NCBI RefSeq assembly: GCF_001433995.1
Contig: NZ_AZCX01000002.1
Span: 372,001-436,000, forward strand
Source: Secundilactobacillus kimchicus JCM 15530
GTDB taxonomy: Bacteria; Bacillota; Bacilli; Lactobacillales; Lactobacillaceae
Reading direction: 5' to 3'
DNA length: 64,000 nucleotides
The translations under genes and the position numbers were made by a program. This document shows, in pieces, positions 51,437 through 60,544 of the stretch (positions within the stretch are counted from its first letter, which is position 1; each line of letters opens with the position of its first letter). Under the pieces are notes generated by a model, which was not told the DNA's origin, did not search any database, and saw only the letters and a list, made by a program, of their open reading frames with translations.

Positions 51437-52375
51437 ATGGCAGACGCAACTGTAAATTACGCAGAGGCTTATCAGCAGGCTATTCAACAAGCCTTTTATG
51501 ATGGTCATCTGTTCTCACAAAAATTGTGGAACTCACCATCTAACAGCGTTATCAAGTTTGATGGCGCTAAGCATATCAAAGTACCCCGATTAACTATTAA
51601 CGAAGGTCGTAAGGATCGCGCCCGTCGGACCATTACACCGGTCGCTGCTAACTATTCCAACGACTGGGATTCATATGAGCTGACCAATGAGCGTTACTGG
51701 AGCACTTTGGTTGACCCATCAGATATTGACGAATCAAATATGGTCATCTCAATCGCTAATATCACTAAGCAATTTAATCTGGATGAAAAAATGCCAGAAA
51801 TGGATCGTCAAATGTACAGCAAGCTCTATCAAGAAAAGGTAGCAGCTGCTGATGGCGGCATCTACACCGATACGCTTGACGAAAAGAACATCTTACAAGC
51901 TTTCGATGATATGATGGTTAACTTTGACGAAGCCCGGATCCCAGGCAATAACCGTGAGTTGTACTTAACTCCAAAGGTTAACGCCATTTTGAAGCGTGCT
52001 GAAGCTATCAACCGTCAATTGACACTTGAAGGTAATGGCAACATCGCTCGGACTGTGTACTCATTAGATGACGTGAACATCAACGTGGTGCCATCTGACT
52101 TGATGCAAACTGCTTTCGACTTTACTACTGGCTCAAAAGCTGTGGATGATGCCAAGCAGATTCAAATGTTCTTGATCTACAACGGCGTTCAGATTGCACC
52201 TCAAAAGTATAGCTTTGTTGGCTTTGACGCTCCTACTGCTTCAAACAGTGGGAACTATCTGTACTACGAACAATCTTATGATGATGTGCTCTTACTCAAG
52301 ACTAAGACGGCTGGTATTGAATTCGTGACTGCTGATAAAGTCGCTCCTACGGAACCAACCGACCCAAAAGCCTAG
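51437..52375 (+). CDS. Major capsid protein
   Basis: A 312-residue major head protein, about the size of PBSX/XkdG-type capsid proteins; the expected HK97 fold is inferred from family and position. The N-terminus (NYAEAYQQAIQQAFYDGHLFSQKLW) and the VDPSDIDESNMVISI and PGNNRELYLTPKVNAILKRA blocks are typical of Lactobacillus/Bacillus homologues. The terminal codons contain a C CCA AAA slippery heptamer followed by a stem (separate entry), so a longer minor form of 334 residues is predicted. Confidence 0.92.
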   Translation: MADATVNYAEAYQQAIQQAFYDGHLFSQKLWNSPSNSVIKFDGAKHIKVPRLTINEGRKDRARRTITPVAANYSNDWDSYELTNERYWSTLVDPSDIDESNMVISIANITKQFNLDEKMPEMDRQMYSKLYQEKVAAADGGIYTDTLDEKNILQAFDDMMVNFDEARIPGNNRELYLTPKVNAILKRAEAINRQLTLEGNGNIARTVYSLDDVNINVVPSDLMQTAFDFTTGSKAVDDAKQIQMFLIYNGVQIAPQKYSFVGFDAPTASNSGNYLYYEQSYDDVLLLKTKTAGIEFVTADKVAPTEPTDPKA

Positions 52376-52440
52376 CGGCTCCCACCACAGTTAAGGTAGA
52401 AGCCAGTGAGGGCGGAGCCGATTTTAGTGCAACATATTAG
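52363..52440 (+). promoter_or_regulatory. Predicted -1 frameshift signal and extension of the capsid gene
   Basis: The slippery heptamer C CCA AAA (52363-52369) is in register with the capsid frame. After a six-base spacer a GC-rich 7-bp stem, CGGCTCC (52376-52382) with GGAGCCG (52414-52420), follows. The -1 frame then codes 23 residues ending at TAG 52438, including EGGADFSATY. GGADFSAT also occurs in the tail sheath (55486-55509) with five of eight codons different but synonymous, so the -1 frame appears to be selected as protein. Efficiency is unknown. Confidence 0.7.
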
Positions 52441-52457
52441 TGAGAGGAGGCTAAATT

Positions 52458-53165
52458 TTGGCCGATGAAAAATATACCCTGAATGTTTTTCAGGGTGACA
52501 AGCAAGTTGGTACTGGCGATAGTGCAAAAGTCCACGTCGATTTAGAAGCTAAAGAATATCCAGCTGGTACTTTTACCGGTGAACTTGTAAACGCTGAGGG
52601 TGCTAAGTCCAAGCGGTTTGATTTCCCAGCAGTGACTGTGGTCCCTAAGACGGTGGCTGTGACTGGTGTCACGATGAGTCAAGCGACTGCAACCGGCGAC
52701 ATTGGTAAAACCGTTGTCTTAACTGCTACGGTAGCTCCGGAAACTGCTACTGATAAGACGGTGGTATGGGCATCTAGCGATGACAAGATTGCGACTGTTA
52801 AAGATGGGACCGTGACCTTTGTCGCTGCTGGTACTGCTGATATTACAGCAACTGTTGGCGGTAAATCAGCAACAACTAAGGTAACCGTCAAAACACCGGT
52901 AGTAGCTGTGACTAAGATTACCTTAGATCCAGCAACTGCTAGTGTGGAAGCTGGTAAGACTGTCGCTTTAACCGCAAAGGTTGAGCCAGATAATGCTACT
53001 GATAAGACAGTCGCTTGGACTTCTAGTGACGATAAAATCGCCACGGTGAAGGATGGTACTGTCACTGGTGTGGTGGCCGGTGAAGCAACGATTACTGGCA
53101 CATCAGCAGACGGTAAGGTTACTGGTACTGCCACAGTGACGGTGACGGCACCCGCAGCGGGCTAG
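52458..53165 (+). CDS. Ig-like (BIg2) virion protein
   Basis: It has 235 residues: a short N-terminal beta domain (about 1-60) and two BIg2 immunoglobulin-like repeats (about 62-145 and 148-230). They share the VALTA/VVLTA, ATDKTV(V/A)W, SSDDKIATVKDGTVT blocks almost identically. Such domains decorate heads or tails and are thought to bind surface carbohydrates weakly. The TTG start has GAGAGGAGG upstream. Placement after the major capsid gene suggests a head decoration protein. Confidence 0.82.
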   Translation: MADEKYTLNVFQGDKQVGTGDSAKVHVDLEAKEYPAGTFTGELVNAEGAKSKRFDFPAVTVVPKTVAVTGVTMSQATATGDIGKTVVLTATVAPETATDKTVVWASSDDKIATVKDGTVTFVAAGTADITATVGGKSATTKVTVKTPVVAVTKITLDPATASVEAGKTVALTAKVEPDNATDKTVAWTSSDDKIATVKDGTVTGVVAGEATITGTSADGKVTGTATVTVTAPAAG

Positions 53166-54795: not shown

Positions 54796-54940
54796 ATTCT
54801 CAAAAGCTTCGCTAGTAATGAGTAAGGGCTTTAAACCTATTGAGCGAGATATTCTCTCGCTTAAATTGGAGGATGGCAAGACTTACTCAAGAGTTGAAGC
54901 TGAAAAAATCATTAAAGAAACTAAAGGAGGCCTACGTTAA
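54785..54940 (+). CDS. Small tail-region protein before sheath
   Basis: A 51-residue charged protein (SKGFKPIERDILSLKLEDGK). TGGAGG lies upstream. Its stop overlaps the sheath start (TAATG). Small frames are found at this position in PBSX-like phages; its role is unknown. Confidence 0.65.
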   Translation: MSSKFSKASLVMSKGFKPIERDILSLKLEDGKTYSRVEAEKIIKETKGGLR

Positions 54941-56361
54941 TGGCTGGTGGAAACTGGAACAAGCAAAACAAGGTGCGACCTGGTGCTTATATCAACACCA
55001 AGGGCACACCACAACCCAAGCCGAACACCTCAATTGGTCGGACGCTACTTATCGGTAGTCAAGACCTTGGCTGGGGTGCTAAGGGCATCACCGAGTTAGA
55101 CGCCGACAGTGACTTTAAAGCGCTATTAGGAACTGACCTGAACGACCCTAAGTTATTGGCTTTGCGTGAAACACTTAAAGGTGCACTCACAGTGCTTTAC
55201 CTCAACAACAATGACGGCGAAAAGGCCAAGGCCGAGGAAGCCACTTTGCCTTGGAACTTTACTGCAAAGTACGCCGGGGTTAAAGGGAATGACCTGACCG
55301 TTTCGATCGAAAAAGACCCTAATGACGAAACGTTGATCACTGTGAACACCATTTATGGCACTGAGATTGTGGATCAACAACAAGTACGGACTACTACCGC
55401 CCGTGGTTTGGAATCGAATGCCTATGTAGATGTTACTTTTACTGGTGATAACACTGAACCAACCCCTGAAGTGACCGCTACTGATGGCGGGGCTGACTTT
55501 TCAGCAACTGCCGGCAAGGCAAAGCTAGAAGCACTCGCTGCTTCTTCTACCTATAAGTTGGCTGGTGGCACCACTGAAGCAGCTGAAATTACCGAATTGC
55601 TAGACGAAGCTTTAGCAACAGAAGTCTACCAAACGGTTACTACCGCTGGGTTCCCAATTGACAACGAAATCCACGAAATTGTGGGCCAAGCCGTCAAGCG
55701 GTTACGCAAGGAAGACGACTTCAAAGCTCGGGCTGTGGTGCCAGTACTGGAAGGTGCTTCTAAGTATGATAACTATGGCATTTCTAAAGTGTCGAATGGC
55801 GTTAAGCTGGCTAGCGGCGAAATTATCGAAAAGACTTACGCCACTGGTTACTTTGCAGGAGCTTCATCAGCAGCTAATTTTGATGAGTCTTTGACTTACG
55901 CTCAATACCCTGGTGCTGTGGGGGCTTATCCGAAGCTATCCAACGAACAGACCATCAACGCTTTGAATGACGGTGAAATTGTCTTCACCGGCCGCCGTGA
56001 TGGCACAGTTGTGATTGAACAAGATATTAATTCACTGGTCACTTTCACCGATGATACTCCAGCTTCTTTCCGTAAAAACCGGATTGTGCGGACTCTTGAT
56101 GAGATTGCTAATAATACTAGCGAAGTCTTCCACACTACTTTCATTGGCAAGGTTGATAACGATCCTACCGGTCGCGACCTGTTCAAGGCCAACCGGGTAG
56201 CTTACTTGCGCAGTTTAGAAAACGCTCACGCTATTCGTGACTTCGATCCAACTGATCTGACTGTGGACGCTGGCAATGACAAGGATTCTATCTTGGTTAG
56301 CCTGGCAGTTACACCAGTTGACGCTATGGAAAAACTGTACATGACCTTGTGGGTTAACTAG
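54940..56361 (+). CDS. Tail sheath protein (XkdK-like)
   Basis: It has 473 residues. The N-terminus NKVRPGAYINTKG and the C-terminal block (NDKDSILVSLAVTPVDAMEKLYMTLWV) are the sheath signature, so the phage has a contractile tail. An insertion around residues 175-200 carries TDGGADFSATAGKAKLEAL, matching the predicted capsid extension. AAAGGAGG precedes the ATG. The sheath surrounds the tube and contracts during injection. Confidence 0.95.
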   Translation: MAGGNWNKQNKVRPGAYINTKGTPQPKPNTSIGRTLLIGSQDLGWGAKGITELDADSDFKALLGTDLNDPKLLALRETLKGALTVLYLNNNDGEKAKAEEATLPWNFTAKYAGVKGNDLTVSIEKDPNDETLITVNTIYGTEIVDQQQVRTTTARGLESNAYVDVTFTGDNTEPTPEVTATDGGADFSATAGKAKLEALAASSTYKLAGGTTEAAEITELLDEALATEVYQTVTTAGFPIDNEIHEIVGQAVKRLRKEDDFKARAVVPVLEGASKYDNYGISKVSNGVKLASGEIIEKTYATGYFAGASSAANFDESLTYAQYPGAVGAYPKLSNEQTINALNDGEIVFTGRRDGTVVIEQDINSLVTFTDDTPASFRKNRIVRTLDEIANNTSEVFHTTFIGKVDNDPTGRDLFKANRVAYLRSLENAHAIRDFDPTDLTVDAGNDKDSILVSLAVTPVDAMEKLYMTLWVN

Positions 56362-57538: not shown

Positions 57539-60500
57539 ATGGCAGGTACGGAAGTTTCAGCCACAATTAAACTGGTGGATGCCTTCAGCGGAACGCTTGG
57601 TAAGCTGAAATCTGGTCTAGGTGGTGCAGGGGCAGCCCTGAGTCAACTATCCGGAAACGCTGGGAAAACTGGTTCAATGTTTAAGTCAGTTTTAGGTGGA
57701 ACATTGGTAGGCCAGGGGATTACTAAAGGGATTAGTGCAATTGGTGGCGGATTGAAAAGCATGTATGGTGAGCTCGATGAATCTAGTCGAGCTTGGCAAA
57801 CCTTTAACGGTAATATGGGTATGCTTGGTAAGTCCGATTCACAAATCGCCACTACCCGTGCAGGGTTGCAAAAATTTGCTCAACAAACGATTTACTCGGC
57901 TTCTGATATGGCTTCCACATATAGCCAATTGGCTGCTGTTGGAACTAAAAACACCGGTAAACTGGTTAAAGGGTTTGGTGGGTTAGCTGCTGCGGCCAGT
58001 AATCCACAGCAGGCCATGAAAACTTTAAGTCAACAAGCCACACAAGCCGCTGCTAAGCCTAAAATTCAATGGATGGACTTCAAGTTGATGCTTGAACAAA
58101 CTCCTGCCGGTATGGCAATGGTCGCTAAGACCATGCACAAGTCCACTGGGCAACTGGTTAAGGATGTGCAGGCTGGCAAAGTCAAGACGCAAGACTTCTT
58201 TAACGCTATCGCCAAAACGGGTACTAATGCTAACTTTAGTAAGATGGCAACCCAGTACAAGACAGTTGGTCAAGCCATGGACGGTTTGCGGGAAACGGCC
58301 GCTAACAAGCTTCAACCAGCTTTTGACGCTGTTAGCAAAGTTGGCATTAAAGCTGTTTCAAAGCTGACAGATAGTCTTGGAAACATCAACGTCGGAAGTT
58401 TAACTAAATCCTTAGTGCCAATGGCACAGGGTGTGGTTAACGGAATCACGTCAGTTTTTAAATTGATTGGTCAAGCTATGAGCAATATCGGCAAGATGGA
58501 TCCAGGAGTACTGAAAGCTTTAGGAGTTGCGTTTGTTGCACTAAAGGCCGGCACATCAGGGTTAGTATTAGCTGGTGCGGTTGCTGGACTTAAGGCCTTA
58601 GCTAGTCTTAGCCCGGGAACTCTAAATGCTGTTGCCATTGGGATTACTGCGATTGCAGCGGCCATGGTGGCGATGAAGGCAGCTAAGGGCATAGCTGGAA
58701 TTTTTAATGTTTTTAAAGGATTGAAAGCCCCTAAAATACCTAAGGTGCAAGTCCCTGATGGAACCGCAGCAGGAAAATCTGCACTGGGCTTCTTAAAATT
58801 AGGCGCCGCTTTACTCATGGTAGGTGGTGCGATTGCTCTTGCTGGTGCAGGCTTCTTCTTAATGGCCCGGGCTTCGACACAACTTGCTTCCGCCGGAGGT
58901 GCCGCAATTGCGGTGTTCTTTGGCATGATTGTTGCAGTTGCCGCTTTGGCTGCTATTGTTGCCTTGCTGGGGCCAGCACTGCTAACCGGCTCAGCAGGGT
59001 TACTGGTCATGGGTGCGGCCCTGTTACTAATCGGCGTTGCGATTTTCTTAGCTACGGCTGGTATGGCACTGTTAACAACCCAGCTTCCGTTGATCGCTCA
59101 ATACGGTTTGATGGCCGCACTCAACATTGCAGTTCTTGGGGTGGCGTTGGCACTATTTGGTGCGTTGTCGTTGATTGCCACCGTTGGAATCGTGTTACTT
59201 GGTGTAAGTCTCGTTGTATTGGCTGCTGGATTAATGATTGCAGCCGTGGGAGCTATTGTTTTTGCGGCTGGTATGTTTATGGTCATGGCTGCTTCTATGA
59301 TGGCCTTCGTCGGGTTGCTCCTGGTGTTCACTGGATCGATTATGGCATTTGCCGGATTAATGATGGTGATGGTCGGCGGTATGATGGCGATGATGGGACT
59401 TATGATGGTCATGATGGGAGCTATGATGGCGTTTGTTGGGTTAATTTTGGTTATGACCGGTGGCATGATGGCAATGATGGGGTTAATGATGGTCATGGTG
59501 GGTGGAATGCTTGCGATGGTCGGACTAATGATGGTGATGGTTGGTGCTATGATGGCAATGGTCGGACTGATGATGATCATGATGACGGCTATGATGGCCG
59601 CAATGGGCTTAATGCTACTAGGTACAACAGCCATGGTAGCGGCGGCGGGAATGCTACTTTTAGCAGCCGCTGTTACCTTAGTCGCGACTCAGGTTTCTTC
59701 GATTGCCTCAAGCGCAGCTGCAGCTGCTGCCAGTTTAACTGGAATGGTTGCTGCTGTGGATGTTATTAAAGCTGGCTTAAACAGTTTGAAGTCTGCCGCG
59801 CAATCAGCAGTTCAAGGCTTCATCTCCGCACTGCGTGGTGGTGTTGGTAGTGCCACTGCTGCAGGTCTCGCTCTGGCAGATGCGGCTACTAACGGTATGA
59901 AGAGTGGTGTGGGTGCTGCTCGGTCAGCAGGTGTCATGATTGGTGCAGGGTTGGCTTCAGGGTTGCGCTCGCAAATTGGTGCTGTACAAGCTGCTGCTAG
60001 CGCTTTAGCTAATGCCGCAGCTAGTGCTGCAAGAGCTGCCGCTAAGGTCCATTCACCATCACGGGTTATGGCTGAGATTGGTGGCTATATGGGCCAAGGG
60101 TTGGCAAACGGGATGAGCGCGACTAACTCGCTGGTTGCCAATGCTGGTTCTGCTATGGCAACCGCTGCTTTAAACGGCGCCGGAATCAATGGTAATAATC
60201 CAGGCGATTTGTTGGCCGCAGGTTTTAACCGGGCATATGCAGCGGTCAATAATGTGGTTGGTGCTATGCGTGGCATTGGTGGTAATGGACTGGCTGTAAA
60301 TGGTCAAATGACCAGTAGTACCAGCCTAGCCACACCCACAACTTCACCGTTTAGTTATGGCCCTGGTACTACCGGTGCTGTTACTAATGCGTCCACAGCA
60401 ACTCAAACGAGTAGCTCTAACACGATCAACATTCAACCAGGTGCTATCAGTCTTACTAGCACTGGTGACGCGGATATAGATGGCGAAGCAATTGCTAGGG

Positions 60501-60544
60501 CGCTTGAAAATCACCTAATGAAAGTTAATGAAAGGATGGGTTAA
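57539..60544 (+). CDS. Tape measure protein
   Basis: It has 1001 residues; length sets the tail length (about 1.5 Angstrom per residue by the general rule, so near 150 nm). The N-terminal tape-measure domain (about 60-270, with SRAWQTFNGNMGMLGKSDSQI) leads to a very hydrophobic centre (about 420-740) that includes eight Met-rich 14-residue repeats, then an Ala-rich and low-complexity C-terminus with AAKVHSPSRVMAEIGGYMGQGLANG, common to the family. No lytic transglycosylase or peptidase domain is seen. AAAGGGGG precedes the ATG. Confidence 0.93.
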   Translation: MAGTEVSATIKLVDAFSGTLGKLKSGLGGAGAALSQLSGNAGKTGSMFKSVLGGTLVGQGITKGISAIGGGLKSMYGELDESSRAWQTFNGNMGMLGKSDSQIATTRAGLQKFAQQTIYSASDMASTYSQLAAVGTKNTGKLVKGFGGLAAAASNPQQAMKTLSQQATQAAAKPKIQWMDFKLMLEQTPAGMAMVAKTMHKSTGQLVKDVQAGKVKTQDFFNAIAKTGTNANFSKMATQYKTVGQAMDGLRETAANKLQPAFDAVSKVGIKAVSKLTDSLGNINVGSLTKSLVPMAQGVVNGITSVFKLIGQAMSNIGKMDPGVLKALGVAFVALKAGTSGLVLAGAVAGLKALASLSPGTLNAVAIGITAIAAAMVAMKAAKGIAGIFNVFKGLKAPKIPKVQVPDGTAAGKSALGFLKLGAALLMVGGAIALAGAGFFLMARASTQLASAGGAAIAVFFGMIVAVAALAAIVALLGPALLTGSAGLLVMGAALLLIGVAIFLATAGMALLTTQLPLIAQYGLMAALNIAVLGVALALFGALSLIATVGIVLLGVSLVVLAAGLMIAAVGAIVFAAGMFMVMAASMMAFVGLLLVFTGSIMAFAGLMMVMVGGMMAMMGLMMVMMGAMMAFVGLILVMTGGMMAMMGLMMVMVGGMLAMVGLMMVMVGAMMAMVGLMMIMMTAMMAAMGLMLLGTTAMVAAAGMLLLAAAVTLVATQVSSIASSAAAAAASLTGMVAAVDVIKAGLNSLKSAAQSAVQGFISALRGGVGSATAAGLALADAATNGMKSGVGAARSAGVMIGAGLASGLRSQIGAVQAAASALANAAASAARAAAKVHSPSRVMAEIGGYMGQGLANGMSATNSLVANAGSAMATAALNGAGINGNNPGDLLAAGFNRAYAAVNNVVGAMRGIGGNGLAVNGQMTSSTSLATPTTSPFSYGPGTTGAVTNASTATQTSSSNTINIQPGAISLTSTGDADIDGEAIARALENHLMKVNERMG
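59294..59629 (+). repeat. Eight 42-base tandem repeats in the tape measure gene
   Basis: Each unit codes 14 residues of the pattern x-M-M-A-x-x-G-L-M-M-V-M-x-G. The eight units are in register from SMMAFVGLLLVFTG to AMMAAMGLMLLGTT. The copies differ by scattered changes, so they are diverged rather than recent duplicates. Confidence 0.9.

Follow-up and report, generated by a model that had tools for sequence, protein, structure and literature searches.

What might a phage gain by shifting reading frame at the very end of its major capsid gene, when the shift adds only 23 residues to the protein? The question is raised by a 64,000-nucleotide stretch of the Secundilactobacillus kimchicus JCM 15530 genome (hereafter the window), in which the capsid gene closes with the sequence ...GAC CCA AAA GCC TAG. 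We compared this stretch with loci that carry relatives of its genes, labelled here by L-numbers (L002, L006 and so on).

A very likely frameshift site at the end of the capsid gene

Four features make up the site:

51437–52375, forward strand: major capsid gene, an open reading frame (ORF) matching phrog_422, major head protein (E 6.7e-93), with a 312-residue zero-frame product
52363–52369, forward strand: slippery heptamer C CCA AAA, read from the sequence, in register with the capsid frame
52369–52440, forward strand: −1 frame tag SLAAPTTVKVEASEGGADFSATY with its stop, proposed to correspond to strands A and B of a fibronectin type III (FN3) domain
52376–52420, forward strand: candidate stimulatory stem-loop, in which 52376–52382 pair with 52414–52420

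The heptamer has the form X XXY YYZ, in register with the zero frame and near its stop, and is followed by a six-nucleotide spacer, GCCTAG (52370–52375), that includes the capsid stop TAG at 52373–52375; phage A2 reportedly also uses CCCAAAA. After slippage the −1 frame runs for 23 codons, from AGC (52369–52371) to TAT (52435–52437), and encodes SLAAPTTVKVEASEGGADFSATY before a TAG stop at 52438–52440, giving a predicted shifted capsid of 311 + 23 = 334 residues. Conceptual translation of the window across the slip gives the predicted transframe sequence, ...TDPKSLAAPTTVK and ...PTEPTDPKSLAAPTTVK. The initial annotation of this DNA had picked out the heptamer, a six-base spacer, a 7-bp stem and an open −1 frame of 23 codons leading to a 334-residue protein; all of these are confirmed by the sequence and by the coordinates 52369–52440.

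Capsid relatives gathered from viral contigs and whole genomes yielded a table of 52 distinct capsids, the window's included, in which identical C-terminal 280 residues were collapsed, the more distant relatives (L042 onward, except L055 and L068) were omitted, and extension types were assigned by sequence patterns. In 20 of the 52, the window among them, CCCAAAA precedes the capsid stop by exactly 10 nt, and every one of these 20 has a recognisable −1 extension: a GGADFSA-like tag in ten, and in ten a helical domain of about 40 residues, which we take to be HeH/SAP-like. A heptamer kept at the identical place in so many relatives, always with such an extension, is more than chance. For the helical domain Pfam returned one sub-threshold match, to Ish1, in a single capsid, and the family that matches it, phrog_12526, is of unknown function. 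A zero-frame helical domain of the same kind ends eleven other capsids, and in L068 (also in L082 and L099) the domain stands in the +1 frame directly after GTC TAA, so the same extension is found in frames 0, −1 and +1 among relatives. Since phrog_12526 is common to the −1 extension of L003, the zero-frame tail of L017 and the +1 extension of L068, the −1 reading of this domain is evidently protein. The capsid ORF of the L105 prophage, apparently a broken copy, stops prematurely in frame 0 and resumes in another frame up to the CCCAAAA region.

The tag stretch can be judged in the same way. Compared pairwise over nine tag-bearing phages including the window (L005, L008 and L097 left out), it has a pN/pS of 0.52 when read at −1, where the two remaining frames give 1.00 and 1.67, and its differences by codon position number 170, 187 and 301, concentrated at the third, as pairwise counts that are hence not independent. 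Selection on the −1 protein, which the initial annotation had surmised, is thereby supported from an alignment of related 3′ ends. If heptamer and stem were accidental, the 312-residue capsid would be the only product and the −1 stretch an untranslated or regulatory RNA element; such a reading would suit L008 (= L096) and L097, which keep the tag in the −1 frame with GGGGGAA and CCCGGAA in place of the canonical heptamer. We regard it as very unlikely in view of the codon-position pattern and pN/pS of the tag stretch, of the helical domain that ten relatives encode in the −1 frame and eleven others in frame 0 (phrog_12526 matching both, in L003 and L017), and of phage A2, whose capsid gene frameshifting is described as experimental in the excerpted text of PMC5009743. 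Among the 52 capsids, 20 keep the heptamer, and L008 and L097 retain the tag without it; in both of these the A-site position is occupied by GAA.

The stem is the weakest part of the frameshift case. Its arms, CGGCTCC (52376–52382) and GGAGCCG (52414–52420), form seven perfect pairs, and folding of the 71 nt that follow the heptamer gives −23.3 kcal/mol (z −2.80), a value as good as which was reached by 2 of 200 shuffles. Across relatives the pairs are kept in 94% of cells, with a single compensatory cell (281 of 500 shuffles were as high) and hence negligible covariation; the stem is missing from the minimum-energy folds of L006 and L013, and stimulatory structure is weak in several relatives. 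The 3′ arm doubles as codons of the tag motif. The pairing first described for the stem stands, and a stimulatory role for it is plausible. With heptamer, position and −1 product kept in relatives and with purifying selection in the −1 frame, the programmed −1 frameshift that had been predicted at the end of the capsid gene is very likely on the sequence evidence.

The partner gene and the tag in the tail sheath

Directly downstream of the tag lies a second gene, which we call the partner:

52445–52450, forward strand: AGGAGG, likely ribosome-binding site of the partner gene, read from the sequence, with a TTG start at 52458
52458–53165, forward strand: proposed docking or decoration protein of 235 aa; phrog_341 (E 9e-43), phrog_215 (E 2.7e-54), Big_2 (E 3.4e-28)
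52458–52640, forward strand: N-terminal domain (N-domain) of about 60 aa, proposed FN3 strands C–G and putative tag-binding part, from alignments A2 and A4
52653–53135, forward strand: two Big_2 Ig-like domains, the proposed displayed part, in two stretches of which the best is residues 150–226; the start is approximate

Among the 52 distinct capsids, all 12 with the tag are followed by an N-domain gene, against 0 of the 40 without it, the latter including three loci with only 246–447 nt downstream (L019, L037, L039), one fragment (L106) and one broken capsid frame (L105). Capsids with the tag do not form one lineage in a capsid tree of 46 rows: the best tree requires 5 or more changes of the tag, and placing them all in one clade is rejected (p-AU 0.0016). 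Support is poor for most of the branches concerned, however, and where it is good there is one independent tagged/untagged pair, too few for a sign test. Partners also vary in what they carry. In L002, L006, L007, L091 and L107 the N-domain is joined to the helical domain that relatives fuse straight to the capsid (phrog_12526 matches it in the L006 partner), and the same cargo thus seems to be attached either covalently to the capsid or via tag and N-domain. The window's partner, a putative virion protein, is encoded beside the head genes and carries the PHROG labels given above. The label of phrog_341, 'major tail protein', looks inherited; the family matches partner proteins encoded after the tube gene.

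The tag recurs once more in the window, in the tail:

54940–56361, forward strand: tail sheath gene; Pfam Phage_sheath_1 and 1C, phrog_279
55453–55515, forward strand: in-frame copy of the tag in the sheath domain II loop, PTPEVTATDGGADFSATAGK region

The initial annotation had already recognised the shared motif GGADFSAT, and its description is confirmed: at 55486–55509 five of the eight codons differ from those in the capsid gene (seven nucleotides), all synonymously, with one Ser codon different at all three positions. A scan of the whole window with a tag profile found two strong sites, the capsid −1 tag at 47.5 bits, itself a member of the profile, and the sheath copy at 27.7 bits, which is not a member although the sheath tags of six relatives are; the next best site scored 5.6. 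With its own cluster left out of the profile the window's tag scores 25.3 bits (best of 100 shuffles, 2.1), and a profile built from other phages gives window-family tags −2.6 to 6.2 bits, three of seven above the best shuffle.

As a domain II insertion, the tag is present in the sheath of 9 of the 11 tagged phages whose locus includes that gene, or 10 of 11 counting the variant DGAEFTA of L013; the sheath is without it in L008, and also in L025, whose capsid duplicates that of L013 and was collapsed in the table. Among untagged phages, 36 have the sheath gene within the locus, and the motif was found in none of these sheaths; because they do without the insertion, we rejected the idea that it is merely a general element of the sheath fold. 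In a model of the window sheath the tag loop, residues 171–190, is of low confidence (block mean pLDDT 50 and 52), behaving as a flexible loop would. The first reading of this DNA had suggested that head and tail might share an element for binding or decoration. Its core survives in the co-occurrence of capsid tag, sheath insertion and a downstream gene for Ig-like or helical domains; what it missed was that gene itself, at 52458–53165, and the likely split-FN3 nature of the motif. Further along the window, at 57539–60544, a long ORF with a Met-rich repeat (MMAMMGLMMVMVGG...) lies where a tape-measure gene would be expected.

FN3 signatures and the same layout in other phages

What kind of domain might tag and N-domain make up? 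We joined tag and partner pairs from five other loci, of which two pass the Pfam fn3 cut-off, one falls below it and two have no match. At L121, where one ORF ends NAPKNLQIKGLSDTSVGLFWERG and the next starts MAISYKIYQDDVFLKEVTELTATITDLQPNTKYTF, the joined sequence matches fn3 over positions 2–83 of 84 at 38.1 bits, against 25.8 bits over 42–83 for the partner alone; joined L132 likewise matches end to end, at 33.7 bits against 29.0 for its partner alone (41–83). For EH93P1 the joined score of 17.6 bits lies below the cut-off of 25, against 13.2 for the partner alone (53–81), and the phiSA039 and IMEP5 pairs gave no Pfam fn3 match, joined or separate. In L121 and L132 a canonical FN3 domain is split by a stop between adjacent ORFs, which in L132 also lie in different frames, and each partner again ends in an A–B-like segment.

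For the window's own family the signal is fainter: four joined pairs had no Pfam fn3 match, profile searches of the PDB with the family returned nothing significant, and hhalign of the family to three intact FN3 domains gave probabilities of 1.7–4.8%, with the C–G part alone aligned. A search of phage records by tblastn with the 66-aa window N-domain was unproductive. N-domain profile A4, which includes the window, nevertheless matches intact FN3 domains in long ORFs at strands C–G, and by Pfam the segments so matched in L160, L163 and L157 are intact or nearly intact fn3. The N-domain thus appears to be related to FN3 strands C–G, by a sequence signal that is weak for the window family alone. 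Since sequence methods by themselves are too weak for that family, its link to FN3 rests on the shared layout, on N-domain homology and on a structural model of the relative L006. There, an AlphaFold2 prediction of the tag read through into its partner, modelled as one continuous chain in which Gly replaces a stop codon, rather than as two proteins, has a mean pLDDT of 90 and a pTM of 0.66, with tag strands at 7–13 and 16–22. Many entries in the Foldseek list obtained with this model are FN3 domains, including 3pe9 (88 alignment columns, 85 residues) and 1k85 (86 columns, 88 residues). E-values run from 2e-3 up, with none below 1e-3; by E-value CopC tops the list, in which aligned query residues are not given. 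Taken with the joined pairs, the model makes the tag look like FN3 strands A and B.

Searches with relatives extended this layout to phages of Staphylococcus, Enterococcus and Brochothrix. In six of six named records (phiSA039, EH93P1, IMEP5, BtpYZU02, phiEf11 and phage 47) a tag precedes the N-domain gene, and in four of the six both capsid and tail tube are tagged: IMEP5 and phage 47 at +1 on each, BtpYZU02 at −1 on each, and phiEf11 at −1 on the capsid and in frame on the tube. The scan of EH93P1 found a tube tag only, and phiSA039 was counted without its capsid. A 70-aa query consisting mostly of N-domain found matches in 571 phage records out of 50,697; of these, 491 have Staphylococcus in the organism name and 77 Enterococcus. 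The tag was checked in the six named records.

How general is the pairing? From 112 free-standing N-domain candidates we took 57 distinct 300-nt stretches, shorter ones being dropped, which fell into 33 clusters at about 75% identity. In the 160 nt upstream of the partner genes, 31 of the 33 clusters beat all 100 of their own shuffles when the cluster was left out of a tag profile whose members had originally been picked by eye from the same upstream regions; the reverse-complement control gave 5 of 33, and above 10 bits there were 24 forward regions against 1 reverse. The two clusters missed were L151, which has tags on capsid and tube further upstream, and the second of two tandem partner genes. 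Assigned by eye over the 33 clusters, the tag frame is −1 in 14, +1 in 12 and zero in 5, with no tag in 2; several of the Staphylococcus-type +1 tags lie just after CCC TAA. A control with regions upstream of other genes proved contaminated, its top scores, up to 34.4 bits, being as high as those of real tags; some of its phages do carry a second tag, and the leave-one-out comparison with shuffles was used instead.

In L002, L005, L006, L007 and L107 tag and partner share one frame and are separated by stops only, as they would be after gene fission, and one might therefore see in the tag the decayed remnant of an FN3 extension broken by a stop, with both pieces drifting. Purifying selection in the −1 frame, the conserved heptamer and its position, a partner gene with its own start and likely ribosome-binding site, the recurrence of the split in 31 of 33 clusters and the second tag copy in the sheath all speak against decay, which we hold to be most improbable. 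Stop readthrough cannot be how the window obtains a whole FN3 domain, because its partner is not in the frame of the tag.

The genome that contains the window has another prophage, L253 (contig C34:186500–193500), which is of a different kind. This prophage has a Phage_cap_E capsid with the +1-frame tag ADTPKNVIATPTTDGVKVTAKAKK, a sheath (phrog_205) that contains APAPANVKATPANDGAKVTADV, and two N-domain genes, of which the first is N-domain only (71 aa, no cargo) and the second ends in a tag. The L253 tags, absent from the profile, are its three best matches in 7 kb (22.2, 14.2 and 11.5 bits; next, 4.1); a blastn search with this prophage was unproductive. Window and L253 together place capsid-and-sheath tagging in two different contractile phages, with the tags alike within each phage.

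Partner proteins that end in a tag of their own occur also in the Kayvirus phiSA039 and in L168, L149 and L254, as in this second prophage of the window genome. At L111:5344–6513 (Staphylococcus phage phiSA039) and in L170, a protein with an in-frame C-terminal tag is followed by an N-domain/Ig protein with a terminal tag of its own, and in L170 by a third N-domain ORF. Judged from their sequences, proteins of the phiSA039 and L170 type could be chained by strand exchange. PDB entry 9rox, 'Putative Ig-like protein', comprises residues 2–175 of the 210-aa tag-bearing phiSA039 protein and so ends short of the tag.

Could the frameshift be real and the tag nonetheless work on its own, say by stabilising shell or sheath as a short beta hairpin, with the Ig-like gene a mere neighbour? 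So short a tag might pack against the capsid, and co-inheritance of adjacent genes can by itself yield a correlation between tag and N-domain similarity (Mantel r 0.62, 28 clusters). We think this unlikely, for three reasons: the 12 of 12 against 0 of 40 co-occurrence goes along with 5 or more changes of the tag on the best tree; tags are found also at tube ends, in a second kind of sheath and at some partner C-termini, in phages with an N-domain gene; and the joined pieces of L121 and L132 match fn3 from end to end.

A proposed docking system and its known counterparts

The sequences directly support the heptamer, −1 coding, the co-occurrence of tag and partner, the sheath tag and the same layout elsewhere. 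Building on these, we consider it probable that the window encodes a natural split-FN3 docking system, in which the −1 capsid tag and the sheath tag, each supplying strands A–B, are completed by the C–G part of the partner, hanging an Ig-like protein on both head and tail. A minority of ribosomes would slip −1 at CCCAAAA, producing a few capsid subunits that end in a 23-residue A–B hairpin; strands C–G would form the N-terminus of the separate, downstream-encoded protein with its two Ig-like domains, and would capture the hairpin to complete one FN3 sandwich between two proteins. Docking sites on the head would then be limited in number by frameshifting, while the sheath, carrying the A–B tag in frame on every subunit, would let the same Ig-like protein dock on the tail too. 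Binding, location in the virion, stoichiometry with frameshift efficiency, and a role in surface adhesion are what we infer for this arrangement.

More broadly, it seems probable that many phages of Gram-positive hosts use a split-FN3 'tag and catcher', in which a hairpin is added by −1 or +1 frameshifting or in frame to capsid, tube or sheath, and a separate C–G protein docks Ig-like or other cargo there; partners that themselves end in a tag could chain. If so, this would explain why in some phages a frameshift close to the end of a capsid or tail gene serves to add a mere 20 residues or so, would assign a role to the proteins that go by the label 'major tail protein' (phrog_341), and would show one way of placing an adhesion protein on both head and tail with its copy number set by translation. 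With 571 matching phage records, the idea is open to test in well-studied systems. The function of phage Ig-like domains is called unclear in the excerpted text of PMC9022992, which allows that some may aid adsorption.

In the open-licence PMC literature, searched by title and start of abstract, we found no paper on split FN3 or tag docking in phages, which does not prove absence, and no domain of which a frameshift tag supplies one part and a second protein the rest is described in the excerpts of PMC13370021 and PMC12886913. Several known systems nonetheless resemble parts of the proposal.

Accessory proteins on the capsid surface, such as T4 Hoc, which is Ig-like, and T5 pb10, bind the shell itself, whereas here we propose a dedicated tag that frameshifting adds to the capsid and that the tail sheath has as well. 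In the donor-strand complementation of pili and in SpyTag-like pairs, a peptide strand completes the incomplete Ig-like domain of another protein; the present proposal differs in concerning phage heads and tails, in using a two-strand hairpin, and in that no covalent bond is indicated. RTX adhesins have 'split' Ig-like domains as well, within one adhesin and not in phage (PMC10865825, in excerpt), and the likeness lies in the word.

Closer parallels come from frameshifting itself, through which the addition of Ig-like domains is established (PMC5009743, PMC8718954 and PMC9022992, each in excerpt); that capsids of some phages are extended at the C-terminus in this way, as the initial annotation had stated, agrees with PMC5009743. 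In the Listeria phages PSA, A118 and A500 the same phage frameshifts both a capsid and a tail protein, and the tail gene has a CCC_UGA +1 site (PMC5009743, in excerpt); here, several Staphylococcus-type +1 tags follow CCC TAA. Lactobacillus phage A2 has −1 frameshifts in both capsid and tail (Garcia 2004 and Rodriguez 2005, as cited in the excerpt of PMC5009743), that in the major capsid gene yielding a second head component as we predict for the window. Its extension is described there as Ig-like, whereas the window's comprises 23 residues and leaves the rest of the proposed domain to another gene product. In SPP1 a frameshift, +1 according to the excerpt of PMC9022992, puts an FN3 domain on a fraction of the tail tube subunits as gp17.1*, at a 3:1 ratio (PMC8718954, in excerpt). 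Extensions of the A2, SPP1 and T3 type hold an entire Ig-like domain, while the window places its Ig-like domains on the next gene; and where SPP1 adds a whole FN3 domain covalently, the domain of the window is split over two genes and would reassemble by strand complementation.
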